Position numbers and translations under genes: made by a program
Notes under the pieces: model-generated
What the model saw: only the letters and a program-made list of their open reading frames with translations
Told to the model about the DNA's origin: nothing
The model's database searches: none
Part shown: one piece after another, positions 3,887 through 29,341 of the stretch
How the letters are laid out: each line of letters opens with the position of its first letter
Numbering within the stretch: the stretch's first letter is position 1
Assembly: GCA_903896675.1 (NCBI GenBank)
Contig: CAITYU010000173.1
Location: 1 to 34,135 of the forward strand
Reading direction: 5' to 3'
From: an uncultured Planctomycetaceae bacterium
GTDB taxonomy: Bacteria > Planctomycetota > Planctomycetia > Planctomycetales > Planctomycetaceae
Length of the DNA stretch: 34,135 bases

Positions 3887-4027
3887 GCAGCGATTGTGTC
3901 AGCGAACAGGCCGGGGATGGACCGCCTTGTCATCACCCACAAACAGGGTGTTTGCGACGGCTTTCCGCCGACGCATCACGGGGAATCCATCGTTTTCGGG
4001 CTCAACGTAAAATGAAGTGCGCGTACC

Positions 4028-4142
4028 GAGCCGGTAAACCTGGGAGGGCGAGGCTCCCGCCGAGCCGGTATACCCTGGGAGGGCGAGGCTCCTGCCGAGC
4101 CAGTATACCCTGGTAGGGCGAGGCTCCTGCCGAGCCGGACGT
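4028..4142. repeat. Tandem 35-base G-rich repeat, three units
   Basis: Three near-identical units with a period of exactly 35 bases start at 4041, 4076 and 4111. Each begins TGGGAGGGCGAGGCTC (TGGTAGGG in the third), continues into a GAGCC half that pairs with the GGCTC just before it, and ends in a GTATACCC-like spacer. The same core recurs near 13250-13630 and 25910-25987. Short reading frames across it yield a GSAGASPSQ-type peptide, which is a repeat artefact and not a gene. Confidence 0.9.
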
Positions 4143-12951: not shown

Positions 12952-13246
12952 GAACGTATTTGCTGTGCGTGCGTTCAGCGATGAGCGGTTCAGCAGAGAA
13001 CCGTCTGAGTGTCCGTCAGAGTAGTCATTTCCGGCGGGAAATCAAAATCGGTCGCCGTTTTTTGGTCCGCGGACCGGGAAATTCCAGGGAGTTGCCGTAA
13101 CAGTGTGACACCGGAGCCCATTTGCCAGAGAAGAAAAAAACGTACGGGCCACGATTCGCAGCCGTGGAAATCCCCATACGTAAAGACTTTCGCTCCAACC
13201 ACCACCCCACCGGTAACACCAACGCTCTCGAACGCAACTCCACCCA
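12952..13246. other. Intergenic region upstream of the NtrC-type gene
   Basis: This region must hold the promoter of the regulator operon, but I could not pick a convincing -35/-10 or sigma-54 site. Short frames on both strands re-read the repeat and have no recognisable product. The right side passes directly into the repeat array. Confidence 0.45.
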
Positions 13247-13417
13247 CTTGGGAGGGCGAAGTCCCGCTGAGCCGAACACCTGCCACGCCACTCGCTCACC
13301 ACTCGGGAGCGCGAAGCCACCGCTGAGCCGAACACCTGCCAAGCCACTCGCTCACCACTCGGGAGGGCGAAGCTCCCGCTGAGCCGAACACCTGCCAAGC
13401 CACTGGACGTCCACGGC
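13247..13417. repeat. Forward array of the dispersed repeat, three units
   Basis: Repeat cores begin at 13251 (GGAGGGCGAA), 13306 (GGAGCGCGAA) and 13362 (GGAGGGCGAA), a period of 55-56 bases. Each core leads into CGCTGAGCCGAACACCTGCC, then AAGCCACTCGCTCACCACTC. This is the same core as at 4041-4142 and 25910-25935, with a different spacer. The unit to the right switches orientation. Confidence 0.9.
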
Positions 13418-13640
13418 TCGTCAGGAGCCTCGCCCTTCCGGATGGGGACTTTGCGATTACTGAACACTGAACACTGACGTCCGACTCGGCAGGAGCCTCG
13501 CCCTCCCGGATGGGGATTTTGCAATTACTGAACACTGAACTCTGACGTCCGGCTCGGCAGGAGCCTCGCCCTCCCGGATGGGGACTTTGCGATTACTGAA
13601 CACTGAACACTGAGCACTGACGTCCGGCGGCAGCCTCACC
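13411..13640. repeat. Inverted-orientation array, 68-base units, running into the thiC stop codon
   Basis: Three units have AGGAGCCTCGCC at 13423, 13491 and 13559, a period of exactly 68 bases. Each continues CTCCCGGATGGGGACTTTGC, then GATTACTGAACACTGAACAC, then TGACGTCCG. The ACACTGA stretches are heptamers. A decayed fourth copy (CGTCCGGCGGCAGCCTCACC) covers 13621-13640 and supplies the thiC stop codon. Peptides such as KVPIREGEAPAEP from this array are artefacts of the repeat. Confidence 0.9.
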
Positions 13641-15456
13641 CGCCCAGGGCCGGTGGTGTCGCCGCCCCGTTCAACTGCACCAACTGAATCTTCCTCGCGT
13701 CCTCGCTGTCCACATAGTCGCTGTGGCAGTTGGCTTTCCCCGCATCAGCACCCACCGTGCGACGCGTCTTGCTGGCCAGACGATGAATGTCCTCCGGAGA
13801 CAACACTCCGCGTTTCTCCAGAATCTCCTGCTGCTCAGACGTCAGCGCCGCTGAGACCTTTGCCTTCTCCCACTGCAGATGTTCGGCCTTGCCACTGGCA
13901 AACAACTGGATCTCCTTGCTGATTCGCACACTGCACCAGTCATGGCCACACATCGCACAGAAGTCCGTATCGACGTCCAGATCCTCGTCGTGATAGGCCC
14001 GGGCTGTGTCCGGGTCAAAACTGAGTTCAAAGTGTCGCTCCCAGTTGAGCGCCGCACGGGCTCGAGTCAGCTCGTCGTCGCGATCCCGACTGCCCGGAAT
14101 CCCCAGAGCCACGTCAGCCGCATGCGCCGCAATCTTGTAGGCAATGCAGCCCTGCTTCACGTCATCCTTCTTGGGCAGCCCGAGGTGTTCCTTGGGAGTC
14201 ACGTAGCACAGCATGCTGGCTCCGTGCCACGCCGCACTGGTCGCTCCGATACAACTGGTGATATGGTCGTACCCGGGGAACATATCCGTCACCAGTGGGC
14301 CCAGCACGTAAAACGGAGCCCCATGACACAGGCGACGCTGCAGTTTCATGTTGAATTCGATCTGATCCAGTGGCACATGCCCTGGCCCCTCGATCATCAC
14401 CTGCACACCCATCCGCCACGCCCGCTCTGTCAGTTCCCCCAGCGTCGACAATTCGGCCAACTGAGCAGCATCGGTGGCATCCGCCAGACCACCCGGGCGC
14501 AGGCCATCCCCGATGCTGAATGTCACATCGTGACGACGCAGAACTTCGCAGATGGCTTCCCAGTGCGTATACATCAGATTCTGAGCATCGTGCTGGATCA
14601 TCCACTTGGCCAGCAGTGAACCGCCACGACTGACAATGCCGATCAGGCGGTCCTTCACCAGCGGCAGATGCTCCTGCAGAACCCCCGCATGAATCGTGAA
14701 ATAGTCCACACCCTGCTGAGCCTGATGCTCCAGAGTTTCCAGCACGATTTCAATGTTCAGTTGCTCGATCCGCCGACCAATGATCATCGAATAGATCGGC
14801 ACAGTGCCGATGGGGACAGTGCTGTTCCGAATAATCGCGTCCCGGCAGGCATCCAGATCACCACCGGTGGACAGATCCATGACCGTGTCAGCGCCCCACC
14901 GCTCCGCCCAGCGCAGCTTCTCAACCTCTTCGTCCGTTCCCGAAGACACCGGCGATGCACCCATGTTGGCGTTGATCTTGGTCCGCGATGCCCGACCAAT
15001 GCACATCGGGTCAAGCTGATACTGCAGGTGCTGGCGGTTGGCCGGAATCACCATGCGCCCGGCGGCCACTTCATCCCGGACCTGCAGGGCTGTCAGATGC
15101 GGTTCCCGCTCAGCCACCCGCTGCATCTGCGGAGTGATCACGCCCAGTCGAGCAAATTCCAGTTGAGTGCACGGCTGAAATCCCGCCGGTGCCTGCCACG
15201 CCTCAGGACGCTCATAATCCGCCTCAAAACCCGGCCGCAGTGACCAGTCCTGTGGCATGAAATCCCACGCCGTTTTCTCGGAAGGAGCCGGCATGCCGGG
15301 AGTGTCGGGGGAGGCATAGGTCAGAGCACCGGCCCGACCGGATGAAATCCGCGGTGCCCGGGAAAAGCTGCCCGGAGTGGTTCCGGCAGGCTGGCTGGCC
15401 GGGCTGGAAGCTTCAATCTGAGGCAGATATCCGGCGGCTCGTTCAGCGTGATTCAT
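13636..15456 (-). CDS. thiC: Phosphomethylpyrimidine synthase (HMP-P synthase)
   Basis: ThiC is a radical-SAM enzyme that rearranges 5-aminoimidazole ribotide into the thiamine pyrimidine HMP-P. The 606-residue sequence carries the non-canonical iron-sulphur motif CxxCxxxxC as CAMCGHDWC (C500, C503, C508), the ThiC-associated N-terminal domain ([20 protein letters not shown]), [32 protein letters not shown] and [14 protein letters not shown]. It is full length. The ATG at 15456 begins 5 residues before variable N-terminal sequence. No TPP riboswitch was recognised upstream, although a small hairpin is present. The stop codon falls inside a decayed copy of the dispersed repeat. It diverges from folC. 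Confidence 0.97.
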
Positions 15457-17938: not shown

Positions 17939-18940
17939 ATGACGGCAGTCTTTCAGTGGTTGATGCTGGCACAGGCAGCAGCGGAACCCATGAGCTTCAG
18001 CAGTGTGCTGATGATCTCGCTGGCCACAATTTTCGGCCTGATTCTGCTCGTTTTCGTGCTGATGTTCGCCACCGTTGCACAGCTCTGGTTTCGTGCGTGG
18101 ATGTCCGGCGCTTCGATCGGACCCGTGCACCTTGTGGTCATGAAACTGAAGCGGATCAATCCCGAAGTGATTGTGGACTGCCGCATCAACGCAGTGCAGG
18201 CCGGTCTGGCGGGTGAAATGTCGACGATGGCCATGGAATCGCACATGCTGGCTGGAGGTCGTGTGCCACTGGTGGTGCGAGCCATGATTGCCGCGCATCG
18301 CGCACAGATTGAACTGGACTGGAACACTGCTGCAGCCATCGATCTGGCCGGGCGGAATGTCCTCGAAGCGGTGCAGACCAGTGTGCGGACCAAGGTAATT
18401 GACTGCCCCGATCCGGCTCGCAGCGCCCGCCCGACTCTGGACGGCATTGCCAAAGACGGAATTCAGTTGAAAGCCAAAGCTCGTGTGACTGTCCGCACCA
18501 ATATTTCACAACTGATCGGCGGCGCCACAGAAGAGACCGTGATCGCCCGTGTCGGCGAAGGCATTGTTTCAGCAATTGGGTCCTGCGAAACGCATAAGGA
18601 AGTCCTTGCCAATCCCATGTTGATTGCCAAAGCGGTACTGGCCAAGGGGCTGGATTCGCAGACCGCCTACGAAATTGTTTCGATCGACATCGCCGACATC
18701 GACGTCGGTGACAACGTCGGAGCCAGGCTGCAGGCGGACCAGGCCGAGGCCGACATGCGCATCGCCCGGGCGCACGCTGAAGAACGCCGCGCCGCCGCTG
18801 TGGCTCATGAACAGGAAATGCGAGCTCTGACGCAGGAAAACCAGGCGCAGGTGGTCCTGTCAGAAGCCGAAGTGCCGCGCGCCATGGCAGGAGCCTACCG
18901 TCGCGGAACGCTGCGAAAAGCGGAAGATGAGTCGCGTTGA
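17939..18940 (+). CDS. floA: Flotillin-like protein FloA
   Basis: FloA is a membrane scaffold protein of bacterial functional membrane microdomains. The 333-residue product has an N-terminal membrane segment (about 24-47, [20 protein letters not shown]), then the conserved [19 protein letters not shown] and [19 protein letters not shown]. The SPFH-like core ([17 protein letters not shown]) and [19 protein letters not shown] follow, and it ends in an Ala/Glu-rich helical tail. Length and motifs match the UPF0365/FloA family throughout. AGGAG lies 6 bases before the ATG at 17939. No NfeD-family partner is adjacent here, which differs from some Firmicute operons. A confident call. Confidence 0.95.
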
Positions 18941-19129
18941 GTCCGCAAGGTCAGGGTCACAATCCGCGACTGTCAATCCTGCCGCCAGTGCACAGACAGC
19001 GTAGCCTGGGCTTTAGCCCGGCCAATCCCTGAAAAACACCGCGTTTCTGAACAATTTGAAGTCGGTTTGACGCCTCACTCCGACTTTTGTCCATCACAAA
19101 CTTGCCTCGGCGACCACACGCGGCTCAGC
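18941..19129. other. Intergenic stretch after floA with a small hairpin
   Basis: This lies between the convergent floA and minus-strand coiled-coil genes. A short hairpin (GGGC, loop TTTA, GCCC) spans about 19006-19021 and is not followed by a T run, so it is a weak terminator candidate. Nothing else was recognised. Confidence 0.4.
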
Positions 19130-19241
19130 CCACTGACCACCGACCACCGACCACCGCCCACCGACCACTGCCCACTGACCACTGCCCACTGACCACTGAA
19201 AACTGAAAACTGAAAACTGAAAACTGAAAACTGAAAACTCA
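19130..19241. repeat. Sixteen exactly phased heptamers ending on a stop codon
   Basis: From 19130 the sequence divides without slippage into 16 heptamers: ten of the CCACTGA/CCACCGA/CCACTGC type (to 19199), five AAACTGA, and a last AAACTCA (19235-19241). The TCA of that last unit is the complement of the TGA stop codon of the gene at 19239-20156. Related ACACTGA heptamers are present in the 68-base units at 13411-13620. Confidence 0.95.
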
Positions 19242-20156
19242 CTCCGCCTGCGACACCTGAGCGTCCGCCTTGGTGCTGCCGTCCTGCTGGCGAATGGTCT
19301 GGAGGAGTGTCTGGCGAGTTTCCGTTGCGGTTTTCAATCCGCGTCGCAGTGCATCCACGTCGTTCTGGATGCTGTTTCGCTCTTCTTCCAGATCTTTAAT
19401 GGCCGTCACCAGCCCCACGCGGTACTCGGGATGATCCGCCACGTCGGCACCGTTCGGATCACCGGACAGTTCGCGTTTGCGAGTATCCAGGGCGGCCTGG
19501 GCTTTGGTGTTCAGGTCTGTCTGGTTCTGCATGTGCACGCCTGTCAGGTAGTTCTGTTCGAACAACCGGATGATCGATTGGTTCAGATTGGCAAAGGCGT
19601 TGCGCTGAGCGGGTGGCACTTGAGCATGCAGGCGAACGCCGTTACCGAAGTTCCAGGAGAGAGTCTCCTGGTCCATCAGCGTCCATGTCGGCTCAAGCAC
19701 GCAGGATGCGTTCTGCAGGCCGTCCAGACGGGCTTTGAATTCACCAATGTAGCGAGTGGTATTGGCATCGACGATGGCGAACACGTGCACGATCGGTTCG
19801 ACGTCGCCATCGCCGCCGGGCAGAGTGACCGGCACAAGGCCATTGTCACGTCCCAGACCAGTCACGGACAGGCGACCACCGGCCACCGTCTGAATGTTGC
19901 CGATGTTGCCACCTGGCGGAAACACCCATTCACGACCCCAGCCCATTTTGACTGACGTCAGGGCTGACCTCGCAGCCACATTTTCGACCCGCGCCGTTTC
20001 GAAGGCTTCCTGAGCCTTGCGGCTTTCTGCCTGGGCCTTCAGCATCGCCGCTTCGATATCGAACCGTCGCTTCAGCACGCGACCGCCGAAATAGAATTCC
20101 GTACCCAGCCCTGCAAGGACAAGGAAAAACAGGGTGCCTCGAAGATATGCATTCAT
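19239..20156 (-). CDS. Unrecognised membrane-anchored coiled-coil protein
   Basis: I do not recognise this 305-residue protein. It starts with one membrane helix (about 8-24, TLFFLVLAGLGTEFYFGG), followed by a charged helical stretch (about 28-65, KRRFDIEAAMLKAQAESRKAQ) that looks like coiled coil. The central region (about 70-215) is beta-rich, with glycine-rich segments (FPPGGNIGNIQTVAGGRLSV). The C-terminal half returns to helix (AIKDLEEERNSIQNDVDAL). The topology suggests an inner-membrane anchor with most of the protein outside the cytoplasm. The ATG at 20156 fits the membrane segment. Its stop codon is part of the heptamer array. It stands alone between floA (convergent) and serC (divergent). 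Confidence 0.75.
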   Translation of the reverse strand: MNAYLRGTLFFLVLAGLGTEFYFGGRVLKRRFDIEAAMLKAQAESRKAQEAFETARVENVAARSALTSVKMGWGREWVFPPGGNIGNIQTVAGGRLSVTGLGRDNGLVPVTLPGGDGDVEPIVHVFAIVDANTTRYIGEFKARLDGLQNASCVLEPTWTLMDQETLSWNFGNGVRLHAQVPPAQRNAFANLNQSIIRLFEQNYLTGVHMQNQTDLNTKAQAALDTRKRELSGDPNGADVADHPEYRVGLVTAIKDLEEERNSIQNDVDALRRGLKTATETRQTLLQTIRQQDGSTKADAQVSQAE

Positions 20157-26710: not shown

Positions 26711-29341
26711 TCACACCGCTGCAGGCGTTGCCGACAGAGTGTACGGCGACGCCAGACCACTCGATGTCCGGAAAACTCGCAGGTAGTATGTCCCAGCCGA
26801 AAGTGAAGTCAGCGACAGACGTCGAACGCCGGAGCGATTCGTTGTACCAAACGCTGGAGTACTGTCCTGCAGTACATTGCCCCACGCGTCACACAACTGC
26901 ACGTGAGTCACAATGTCGCAGCGATTCAGAACACCCCGCCCATTTCTCCAGTTGCTCATCGTCAGCTCCACGGACAGCGACGACGAATCACTGAGATTCA
27001 ATACAAACCAGTCATCGCTTTCTGACGATGACAGACTGCCGGTCACACTGGTCGCTGCACCCGTTCGCATCGTCCCGAATGCTGACGCCGACCAGCGCGA
27101 ATCATTCGGCTCAGAATCGGATCCCACAATCACCGGTGGTGCCACCGGACCGGAAGCGGTAAACAGGGTAGACAATCGGTAGCTGGACGACGAACTGCCA
27201 AAACCGTAAACGCGGACATAATAGTCACCCGCAGACAATCCATTCAGTACCACCCCATCATCTGCGCTGCTGAACCTGTATGAGCCACCAAGAATCAGGC
27301 CATTCCTGTCCCGCACCTGCAGATCAAGGTCGGTCGACAATCCGGAAAGGTCAACCCGCAGGGAACCACCAGAGCTCAGGGTGACTCGATACCAGTCCTC
27401 CTGATCACTGCCCGCCACGCTTCCATAGACCACGTTCGCCACACCTGAAGTCAGCACCCCTGCGCTGCCGGCTGCCTGCAGACTGCTGTTCGGCTCCACA
27501 TCCCCACTCAATACAGGTGGTGTCACCGGTGGAGTTACCGGTGGAGTTACCGGTGGTGTCACCGGCGGAGTCACCGGCGGAGTCACCGGCGGAGTCACCG
27601 GCGGAGTCACCGGCGGTGTCACCGGTGGTGTCACCGGAACATCAGCTGACTGAGGCGTTGCACGCAGGGTATAGGGAGATGTCATCCCGGTACGAGTCCT
27701 GAACACTCGCAGATAGTAGGTGCCGGCCGCGAGGAAATTGATGTCGAAACGTCGCCCTCCGGTCCGATGAGTCGTACCAAACGCCGGGGTACTGTCTCGC
27801 AGTACAATGCCGCTGGCATCACACAGCTGCACGTTCGTCACGATGTCGCAGCGATTCAGGACACCACGTCCATCCCGCCAGTTGTCCATCATCAGCTCCA
27901 CTGACATCGACGACGCTTCTGTCAGAGACAGCTCAAACCAGTCATTGCTGTCAGTTGTCGTCAGACTTCCGGTCACACTGGTTGCTGAACCCGCCAGCAT
28001 CGTCCCGAACTGTGACGCCGCCAGTCGGGAATTGTTGGGTTCCGTATCTGATCCGATGATCACCGGAGGCAAAGTCACTTCCTGTACAGCGGCCGAAATC
28101 CGATAGGCCCTGTTGGTCGTACTGATGCTCACGTTCTGCAGATCCACCCCACTGGAATTGACCAGTGTGACCTTCAGCTCACCCGCAGTCGACTGCACTC
28201 GCAGGTAATAGGTGCCTGCCGCCAGATTACTGATGGACCGTGTTGCCGGAAGAGCCGTCGTTCCTGACAACTCCAGTGAACCGCTCCACCTGCTCGTTGT
28301 CTGGAACCGATACCAGTCCACATCGCCGGACGGCAGCGTTCCATCGATGACGATGCTGGCTCCGGACGTCGCCGTTCCCAGATCTGCTGCTGACCACTGA
28401 CTGTTGTTCGGCTCAATATCAAATGTGCTGGAGGAACCTCCGGTCGTTGCCAGAGTCGACAGGCGATAAGCGGATGCGGCCCCGTCAAAACGCTTGATGC
28501 GTACGAAGTAGTCGCCGGCAGACAGCTCGCTCAGCTGGATCTGCTCATTATCGCTGCCACCGAAAGCGGACGTCCCCAGAACAAAACCGCTGCTGTCCTC
28601 AACCGAAATGTCGAGGTCGCCGGACAGACCCGTCAGATCGATCTGCAGCGAACCGCTCGCTCCCACCGGAACACGGTACCAGTCCTCCTGATCACTGCCT
28701 GTCAGGCTGCCGTTGACCACGGTCGCCACACCCGGAGTCATGGTACCCACACTGCCGGCCATCAGACGGCTGCCATTGGGCTCAACGTCTCCGGTGAGCG
28801 ATGGGGGAGCTGGGGGATATTCAGAATCCTCGGAAATCGTTCCGCTGAAGACAGCAGTATACTGGCTGCGGGCTGTTGTAGTGCCTTTGTAGATGCGAAT
28901 GTAGTAGGTACCAGCCGGCAATGACGGCAGCGAGACCAGCTCAGAGGCCATGCCCGTTCGCAAACCCGATGCCAGAACTCGACCACTGGAATTCTGAAAC
29001 TGAATATTCAGATTGCTGGTCATTCCGTTCATCACGAGGCGACCGTTCGTCACATCATCTTCCAGCTCCAGCATGAAAAAGTCCTGCGTATCGGCCCCTC
29101 CGATGAAGCCCCCCATGCGACTGTACACATCATCCGTCGCAGTACCACTGACATCCAGCTCGTTCGCCTCCAGTCGTGAATTGTTGCCCTCAGACTCAAG
29201 GAATCCGCTGATCACCGCCGTCATCAACTGCCGCGACTCCAGTCCATCACCAGACCGGTAAAGCCGCTTCGCCGAAGAACGTCGGCGCGGACCGCCACAC
29301 AGACTCCTGAACGCCTGACAGAGTTCGCTGATCGACTTCAT
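26711..29341 (-). CDS. Large exported PPC-repeat protein with a VTPP linker and LEPR-XLL-like N-terminus
   Basis: This 876-residue protein contains about six PPC-type beta modules. The N-terminal region (PRRRSSAKRLYRSGDG, then LESRQLMT) matches that of the 24047-25714 paralogue. Modules alternate between two kinds: one with DQEDWYRV and SAGDYFVRI or SAGDYYVRV, and one with SNDWFELS or SDDWFVLN plus a NRCDIVT.VQLCD segment holding two cysteines. A ten-unit VTPP linker (about residues 569-608) separates the first four modules from a second copy of the two kinds. No enzymatic domain is visible, so a structural or adhesive surface role is inferred. ATG 29341 has AGGAG 8 bases upstream. Confidence 0.85.
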   Translation of the reverse strand: MKSISELCQAFRSLCGGPRRRSSAKRLYRSGDGLESRQLMTAVISGFLESEGNNSRLEANELDVSGTATDDVYSRMGGFIGGADTQDFFMLELEDDVTNGRLVMNGMTSNLNIQFQNSSGRVLASGLRTGMASELVSLPSLPAGTYYIRIYKGTTTARSQYTAVFSGTISEDSEYPPAPPSLTGDVEPNGSRLMAGSVGTMTPGVATVVNGSLTGSDQEDWYRVPVGASGSLQIDLTGLSGDLDISVEDSSGFVLGTSAFGGSDNEQIQLSELSAGDYFVRIKRFDGAASAYRLSTLATTGGSSSTFDIEPNNSQWSAADLGTATSGASIVIDGTLPSGDVDWYRFQTTSRWSGSLELSGTTALPATRSISNLAAGTYYLRVQSTAGELKVTLVNSSGVDLQNVSISTTNRAYRISAAVQEVTLPPVIIGSDTEPNNSRLAASQFGTMLAGSATSVTGSLTTTDSNDWFELSLTEASSMSVELMMDNWRDGRGVLNRCDIVTNVQLCDASGIVLRDSTPAFGTTHRTGGRRFDINFLAAGTYYLRVFRTRTGMTSPYTLRATPQSADVPVTPPVTPPVTPPVTPPVTPPVTPPVTPPVTPPVTPPVTPPVLSGDVEPNSSLQAAGSAGVLTSGVANVVYGSVAGSDQEDWYRVTLSSGGSLRVDLSGLSTDLDLQVRDRNGLILGGSYRFSSADDGVVLNGLSAGDYYVRVYGFGSSSSSYRLSTLFTASGPVAPPVIVGSDSEPNDSRWSASAFGTMRTGAATSVTGSLSSSESDDWFVLNLSDSSSLSVELTMSNWRNGRGVLNRCDIVTHVQLCDAWGNVLQDSTPAFGTTNRSGVRRLSLTSLSAGTYYLRVFRTSSGLASPYTLSATPAAV
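27516..27635 (-). repeat. Ten tandem 12-base units coding for VTPP
   Basis: The 120-base tract divides exactly into ten in-frame 12-mers of the form GGNGGNGTNACC on the plus strand (read VTPP on the coding strand). Four central units are identical (GGCGGAGTCACC), while the outer units differ only at synonymous positions. The pattern fits growth by slippage or unequal exchange while the reading frame is kept. Confidence 0.95.

Follow-up and report, generated by a model that had tools for sequence, protein, structure and literature searches.

Polar degenerate heptamer repeats adjoining stop codons in the genome of a planctomycete

A minus-strand gene of an uncultured Planctomycetaceae bacterium ends inside a tandem repeat of heptamers, and its stop codon forms part of the last unit. 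Why should a repeat of this kind begin precisely where a coding sequence ends? The array lies in the window, by which we mean the whole stretch of 34,135 nucleotides that was analysed, and the features concerned are collected in Table 1. A sequence-only reading of the window had described an exactly phased 16-unit array free of slippage, with a clean switch between two types of unit and a final AAACTCA that supplies the TGA of the minus-strand gene, and all of this was borne out. The ten distal units (CCACTGA, CCACCGA, CCACCGA, CCACCGC, CCACCGA, CCACTGC, CCACTGA, CCACTGC, CCACTGA and CCACTGA) are followed by the AAACTGA units and by AAACTCA, and Tandem Repeats Finder reported two arrays of period 7, at 19130-19199 and 19195-19239, with 0% indels each. 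The window has 13 copies of ACTGANNACTGA, and 100 shuffles gave 0.05 copies on average; a chance origin of these heptamers is therefore excluded. The gene whose stop lies in the array had no Pfam match at E 0.001. The window also holds a 12-base tandem repeat, GTCACCGGCGGA, with 9.7 copies at 27516-27637, in a gene on the minus strand that encodes pre-peptidase C-terminal (PPC) domains.

Table 1. Heptamer features of the window and the genes next to them.
Feature	Positions	Strand	Remarks
Three family heptamers inside the 68-base repeat unit	13457..13477	+	
Four family heptamers within and just behind the last 68-base unit	13593..13620	+	15 nt from the stop of the ThiC-family gene
ThiC-family gene	13636-15456		stop 15 nt from the heptamers at 13593..13620
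FloA flotillin-like gene, convergent neighbour	17939..18940	+	stop 189 nt from the array, on its ORF-distal side
Whole array, 16 heptamers	19130-19241		from the sequence; no phase break over 112 bases
ORF-distal block, ten CCACYGM units, partly degenerate	19130..19199	+	from the sequence and unit list
ORF-proximal block, five AAACTGA units, all identical	19200..19234	+	from the sequence; Tandem Repeats Finder, 100% matches at 19195-19239
Edge unit AAACTCA	19235..19241	+	gene sense TGAGTTT, that is, TCAGTTT with the stop TGA in register
TGA stop codon inside the edge unit	19239..19241	-	plus strand TCA, its reverse complement; belongs to gene 19239-20156
Gene of 305 aa with its stop in the array	19239..20156	-	orthologues with 83% (G007) and 81% (G008) identity, same final residue

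The window array is not alone: degenerate heptameric tandem repeats of the same family, of the kind known as STRR or heptameric simple sequence repeats (SSR), are spread over the whole genome, and their unit is NNACTGA, or TCAGTNN on the opposite strand. In the draft genome to which the window belongs (G000; 5.89 Mb in 589 contigs) three consecutive NNACTGA units were matched 578 times on one strand and 479 times on the other, 1,057 matches altogether, and the reversed pattern used as control was matched 2 and 0 times. Exact arrays in 733 kb of sampled sequence numbered 70 for period 7, as compared with 9 for period 5, 5 for period 6, 1 for period 8 and at most 5 for each of the other periods between 5 and 30 bases; periods 2-4 exceeded period 7, as a match then needs just a few bases. 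The commonest among the 29 unit types listed for these 733 kb were CCACTGA, AAACTGA and CAACTGA, and the NN letters found in the genome include CC, AA, CA, AC and GA. A sample of 118 stretches (1.13 of the 5.89 Mb, about a fifth of the genome) contained 53 arrays, 2 of them inside called genes, and the whole genome is estimated to hold a few hundred. The triple unit was also present in 24 of 58 relatives, including 15 of the 17 from the same genus, in counts that were all below that of G000. Across the phylum, 148 further genomes were sampled, and 13 of them, scattered over several families, had four consecutive units. It was also possible to see ACTGA-core heptamers with TC, TT and AT, besides CC, as NN letters in other planctomycete families (G094, G098 and G167); the reversed control was zero in these three genomes, though not in every genome of the 148-genome scan. 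One named relative was found, a 'Planctomyces sp.' MAG, a contig of which encodes an 81%-identical protein.

The position of the arrays with respect to genes was measured in the 118 stretches of G000, 13 of the first 20 contigs having been picked from a list of array-bearing ones and the remainder taken in numerical order. Genes were called with a purpose-written, simple hexamer-scored ORF caller; its start codons are unsure, and the start side was examined only through them. Arrays with GAGGGCGA within 60 bases (12 of the 53) were set aside, and the others are referred to as plain. Among plain arrays whose ACTGA 3' side faced the stop of an oppositely oriented gene, 17 of 20 lay within 12 nt of it (distances of 2, 2, 2, 3, 3, 3, 3, 3, 4, 4, 4, 4, 6, 6, 8, 10, 11, 24, 333 and 599 nt), as compared with 1 of 16 where the ACTGA 5' side faced the stop (Fisher, 4e-6). 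Start codons within 12 nt were found in 0 of 10 cases on the 3' side and 0 of 14 on the 5' side. When arrays with both neighbours were slid along their gaps, 13 of 15 were at the stop against 1.8 expected, and none of the 20,000 simulations reached 13. The remaining three classes of gene edge had no excess (where a stop faced the ACTGA 5' side, 1 of 11 was close to it against 1.2 expected), so that the anchoring is polar and not a general attraction towards 3' ends. Gap by gap, the ACTGA 3' side was the nearer one to the ORF in 17 of 18 plain gaps (p 1.4e-4), with 13 of 13 on the stop side and 4 of 5 on the start side; called starts lay at 15, 15, 16 and 30 nt from the ACTGA 3' end, and at the locus L263 that end abuts a called start codon. 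The arrays of this genome are polar, with the ACTGA 3' edge pinned to the ORF boundary and the opposite edge free.

The family is then neither rare nor randomly placed at gene ends, as the 1,057 triple matches and the 17 of 20 arrays at stops indicate. A shared heptamer-generating process that targets 3' ends had been put forward by the sequence-only reading. The abundance of the heptamers, their tie to gene ends and the register of the stop speak for this proposal, which is only partly supported and has to be narrowed, since only one side of the array is concerned. The same reading had pointed to related heptamers within the 68-base repeat, and they are indeed there (13417-13613). In this genome heptamers within or next to the larger repeats of the GGGAGGGCGAGGCTCC type are not anchored to stops (0 of 8 GAGGGCGA-associated arrays within 12 nt), so that the copies at 13411-13620 give no sign of 3'-end targeting.

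Other repeats accompany the heptamers. The core GGGAGGGCGAGGCTCC(T/C)GCCGAGCC marks a dispersed repeat seen in the window at 13417-13613, 13244-13404 and 4026-4138 and at several other loci of G000, and this core is often followed by GGACG, family heptamers and TCGCAAAGTCCCC, a composite of which the heptamers are one module. Another intergenic dispersed repeat, of the ATTCGTGTCATTCGTGG / TTCCGTGTTCTTCCGTGG type, stands beside heptamer arrays (L034 3440-3600, L077 69-210, L092, L051 and L037). In L044, L129 and L039 the ORF-distal edge of the array runs into G-rich tails of period 7, such as GGAGTGGGGAGTGG or GGCAGGTGGGCAGG, which look as if they were decayed or converted heptamers. The arrays of L034 and L077 are preceded by T-arm-like letters, and tRNA 3' ends were considered as a second target; this was discarded, as ARAGORN found no tRNA in L034, L077 or L092.

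Regarding the stop codon itself, two junctions recur in gene sense, TAG followed by TTTTCAG and TGA followed by GTTTTCAG. They are described by an edge unit TCAGTNN in which TAG replaces CAG, or TGA or TAA replaces TCA. With a definition of register that was made after the junctions were inspected, the stop was in register in 10 of the 18 stop-abutting arrays (those within 30 nt, the window array included), against 1 in 7 expected (p 5e-5). TAG was the stop in 9 of these 18 arrays, as compared with 87 of 704 genes (p 1e-4). A second set was obtained with a genome-wide pattern, the edge unit without C, which had 60 matches, 26 of TAG type among the matches listed; 20 matches outside the sample were taken, and a lower gene-score threshold was used for them. 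Sixteen of the 20 were at an in-frame stop (11 TAG, 4 TAA and 1 TGA) and 15 of these 16 were in register, which, the set having been selected on the edge unit, supports the register and is no measure of its frequency. L263 is one of the four loci that were not at an in-frame stop. By contig strand, the edge-unit matches numbered 46 on the minus and 14 on the plus strand (C60, C123, C181, C228 and others), and several were near contig starts, possibly an effect of contig orientation in the assembly.

The units also have an order within the stop-abutting arrays. In just 2 of 12 arrays were CC-type units the ones closer to the stop (sign p 0.04, Wilcoxon p 0.007), and perfect ACTGA cores were closer to it in 10 of 11 arrays (sign p 0.012, Wilcoxon p 0.04); core-mutated and CC-type units are thus distal to the stop, as they are in the window array, and arrays away from stops had no unit trend (CC 4/9, core 7/13). 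A gradient arising from single units was also considered and rejected, since these were right behind the stop in 50 of 652 genes and at +30 to +41 in 57 of 652.

The anchoring was then compared with that in two relatives, G007, of the same genus, and G018, a single-contig genome of another genus, using 20 stretches of each chosen around arrays and, in G018, a part of the listed places. In G007, 8 of 18 arrays were within 12 nt of a stop, namely 2 of 9 plain ones (sliding test p 0.04) and 6 of the 9 repeat-associated ones; arrays with GAGGGCGA within 60 bases made up 10 of 26 in this genome. The ACTGA 3' side was nearer the ORF in 8 of 13 plain gaps of G007 (p 0.58) and in 16 of 22 when all arrays were counted (p 0.05). 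In G018 the anchoring to stops within 12 nt showed no excess over expectation (2/7, p 0.57), and the ACTGA 3' side was nearer the ORF in 14 of 18 gaps (p 0.03). Anchoring is weaker in both relatives than in G000. The rule may be nearer to 'ORF edge' than to '3' end', although the start-side cases of G007 are contrary, the 3' side being nearer in 1 of 5 plain gaps and in 0 of 5 with all arrays.

The same gene ends were also inspected in relatives. The window gene ends in SQAE, TGA and 16 units in G000, in SQAE, TAG and about 3 units with other NN letters in G008, and in SQTE and TAA, with no array behind them, in G007. Each of these two genomes yielded orthologues for 16 of the 18 array genes. 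By eye, TCAG-type units stood directly behind the stop at 7 of the 16 ends of G008, often with other NN letters, and one further end had the variant unit TCCGTGG; in G007 sense units were at the stop in 1 of 16, and one array of opposite orientation was at a stop. Sites are therefore partly shared between species, with turnover of the units, and copy number and NN letters vary at roughly half of the sites for which G008 was compared. Protein ends at arrays are mostly unchanged with respect to orthologues: the length was equal in 9 of 16, shorter in 6 and longer in 1 against G007, and equal in 12 of 16, shorter in 2 and longer in 2 against G008. Array-free genes of the window also vary in length, three of seven having no difference. 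C-terminal erosion at the arrays was discarded, the length differences being inconsistent in the two comparisons. The stop codon differed from that of G007 in 10 of 16 array genes and 10 of 30 others (p 0.07), and from that of G008 in 6 of 16 and 1 of 10 (p 0.19), the array-free controls being taken from stretches around arrays or their orthologues and not at random; a raised switching of stop codons at arrays is suggestive only, since neither difference is significant.

Tandem heptanucleotides dispersed between genes are known from heterocystous cyanobacteria as STRR repeats. The present arrays share with STRR and heptameric SSR the exact period of 7, the dispersed copies and the same-site variation between relatives, and we regard them as a planctomycete variant of the known intergenic heptamer repeats. 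The accessible parts of PMC4692102 describe intergenic heptameric simple sequence repeats, GGGAATC in Xanthomonas and GGGGA(C/T)T in Nostoc, with more than 100 per Xanthomonas genome, degenerate positions and a length that varies between related species. There the 5' side of the G-rich strand is nearer the ORF in any orientation, one figure legend wording the downstream case differently; some repeats overlap stop codons, and the function is left open. The polarity is the same as in G000, where the 5' edge of TCAGTNN is at the ORF (PMC4692102); it was seen in 17 of 18 gaps of G000 and 14 of 18 of G018, and was not clear in G007. In Xanthomonas and Nostoc every unit has a G-tract, whereas in G000 the common units give at most GG, and GGG comes, on the opposite strand, only from the minority units CCACTGC (25) and CCACCGC (11). 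The in-register stop seen in G000 has no mention for the Xanthomonas and Nostoc repeats in the accessible parts of PMC4692102.

By comparison, the accessible parts of PMC4679880 (MacGregor 2015) describe direct repeats of TAACTGA, mostly intergenic, in Beggiatoaceae, Cyanobacteria and Bacteroidetes. In BOGUAY, the main genome, they are mostly just upstream of starts, with the 3' edge of the ACTGA strand adjoining the ORFs, and related heptamers are rarely repeated; two Cyanothece strains differ in steps of 7, and one Bacteroidetes set is directly behind a stop in reverse orientation. The ACTGA core and the period are those of G000, TAACTGA fits NNACTGA, and its place upstream of starts is equivalent in orientation to the arrays of G000. 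The mostly start-side placement in BOGUAY and its rarity of related units (PMC4679880) contrast with the stop-side anchoring and many NN letters of this planctomycete, in which 17 arrays were within 12 nt of stops and 0 of 10 of starts, L263 being the one start-abutting case. TAACTGA is absent among the 29 unit types listed for 733 kb of G000, and the string 'Planctomyc' is absent from the text of PMC4679880. Neither a planctomycete heptamer family nor an in-register stop in the edge unit was found in the literature searched, of which subscription papers are mostly not part.

Taking all this into account, the best overall explanation, which we think about evenly balanced between being right and wrong, is one of polar degenerate heptamer repeats whose edge advances to the ORF, with selection for an in-frame stop and no proven regulatory role. 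The array is probably a non-coding repeat of which one edge advances up to the ORF boundary. Arrays would lengthen and be rewritten by slippage, or by recombination of one array with another, and their ACTGA 3' edge would move forward at the expense of spacer DNA until it is halted by selection on the coding sequence. At a stop codon only those junctions that keep or re-make an in-frame stop would survive, and such survival would give TAG for CAG, and TGA or TAA for TCA, in the edge unit TCAGTNN. Replacement and insertion look alike in these data, because no pair of strains is close enough for the spacers to be aligned. Ordinary repeat turnover and selection at the coding boundary can explain much of what was seen.

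An alternative that is more interesting than the advance of an edge is a general directional process, working in several phyla, in which 7-base repeats would be built or lengthened starting at the edge of a coding sequence and away from it, the stop being rewritten into the first unit under one polar rule; we consider it possible but doubtful. The rule, to which we attach the same doubt, would be that the 5' edge of one strand is pinned to the ORF boundary, with GGGAATC in Xanthomonas, GGGGAYT in Nostoc, TAACTGA in Beggiatoaceae and NNACTGA in Planctomycetota. That strand is the G-richer one in Xanthomonas, Nostoc and G000.

It is also conceivable, though rather unlikely, that the array is a functional 3' element, in which the TCAGTNN RNA behind the stop, by binding a protein or by its structure, would set the stability of the mRNA 3' end or termination, and selection would hold it in position. 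Consistent with this, self-pairing beyond what the composition gives is confined, in the window array, to the gene-sense strand (z -4.05; the opposite strand has -0.46), a folding z below -2 was obtained for 11 of the 13 stop-abutting arrays that are 40 nt or longer, units are also present at about half of the sites in G008, and a post-transcriptional role is suggested for the start-side TAACTGA repeats in the accessible parts of PMC4679880. Against it, the 120 nt behind array-bearing stops fold less than ordinary 3' flanks (median of -33.9 kcal/mol, n 18, against -39.0 kcal/mol, n 300, uncorrected for base composition), the pure TCAGTTT repeat, which is the type nearest the window stop, does not fold, no terminator-like site is present in 18850-19400, and arrays are mostly missing at the orthologous ends of G007. 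An intrinsic terminator or structured 3' UTR was rejected on the same terminator and flank results. Rfam at the gathering threshold gave one tRNA in the window and nothing else. The features of phase-variation (contingency) repeats, which lie in or before a gene and switch its frame or promoter as units are lost or gained, were not seen either: 51 of the 53 arrays are outside called genes, and the stop-abutting ones leave protein ends mostly unchanged. There is no good evidence for a regulatory role of the arrays and they have no protein-coding role; they would seem to lack a function.

We judge it distinctly unlikely that heptamers are added at ORF edges, starting at the stop, by a directional process dedicated to this, be it a mobile element or templated DNA synthesis. 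The adjacency to stops, the in-register stop, the one-sided polarity and the matching polarity of other heptamers in other phyla (PMC4692102 and PMC4679880, in their accessible parts) are what such a process would leave. However, none of the 400-nt flanks on the anchored side of stop-abutting arrays matched another sampled stretch (blastn, E 1e-6), and thus no shared element was seen in the sampled stretches; a common flanking mobile element was rejected on this ground, although many array flanks do match dispersed repeats. Moreover, DNA should carry no mark of an in-frame stop, so that targeting would require a link to translation or RNA.

Random insertion of arrays followed by purging, in which an array that is open in gene sense survives nowhere but behind a stop, is in our opinion about as unlikely. 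TCAGTNN has no gene-sense stop for the common NN letters, so that the protein would gain a long tail from any array placed ahead of the stop, and the near absence of arrays inside called genes agrees with purging. Nevertheless, insertion at random predicts random distances, and the distances to stops and the sliding test given above already disfavour it. That the arrays are an artefact of assembly in a fragmented, metagenome-derived genome, several of whose 589 contigs end in arrays, has a negligible probability, since G018, which is a single contig, also has the NNACTGA family, and so do relatives that were assembled separately, among them G008 at the orthologous gene end.

The over-representation of intergenic 7-base repeats in bacteria and their asymmetric adjacency to ORFs lack an explanation. 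One-sided anchoring together with an in-register stop is a sharp signature that any model for the spread of heptamers must explain, and it can be checked in strain collections. For gene annotators, the stop codons in such genomes may belong to a repeat.
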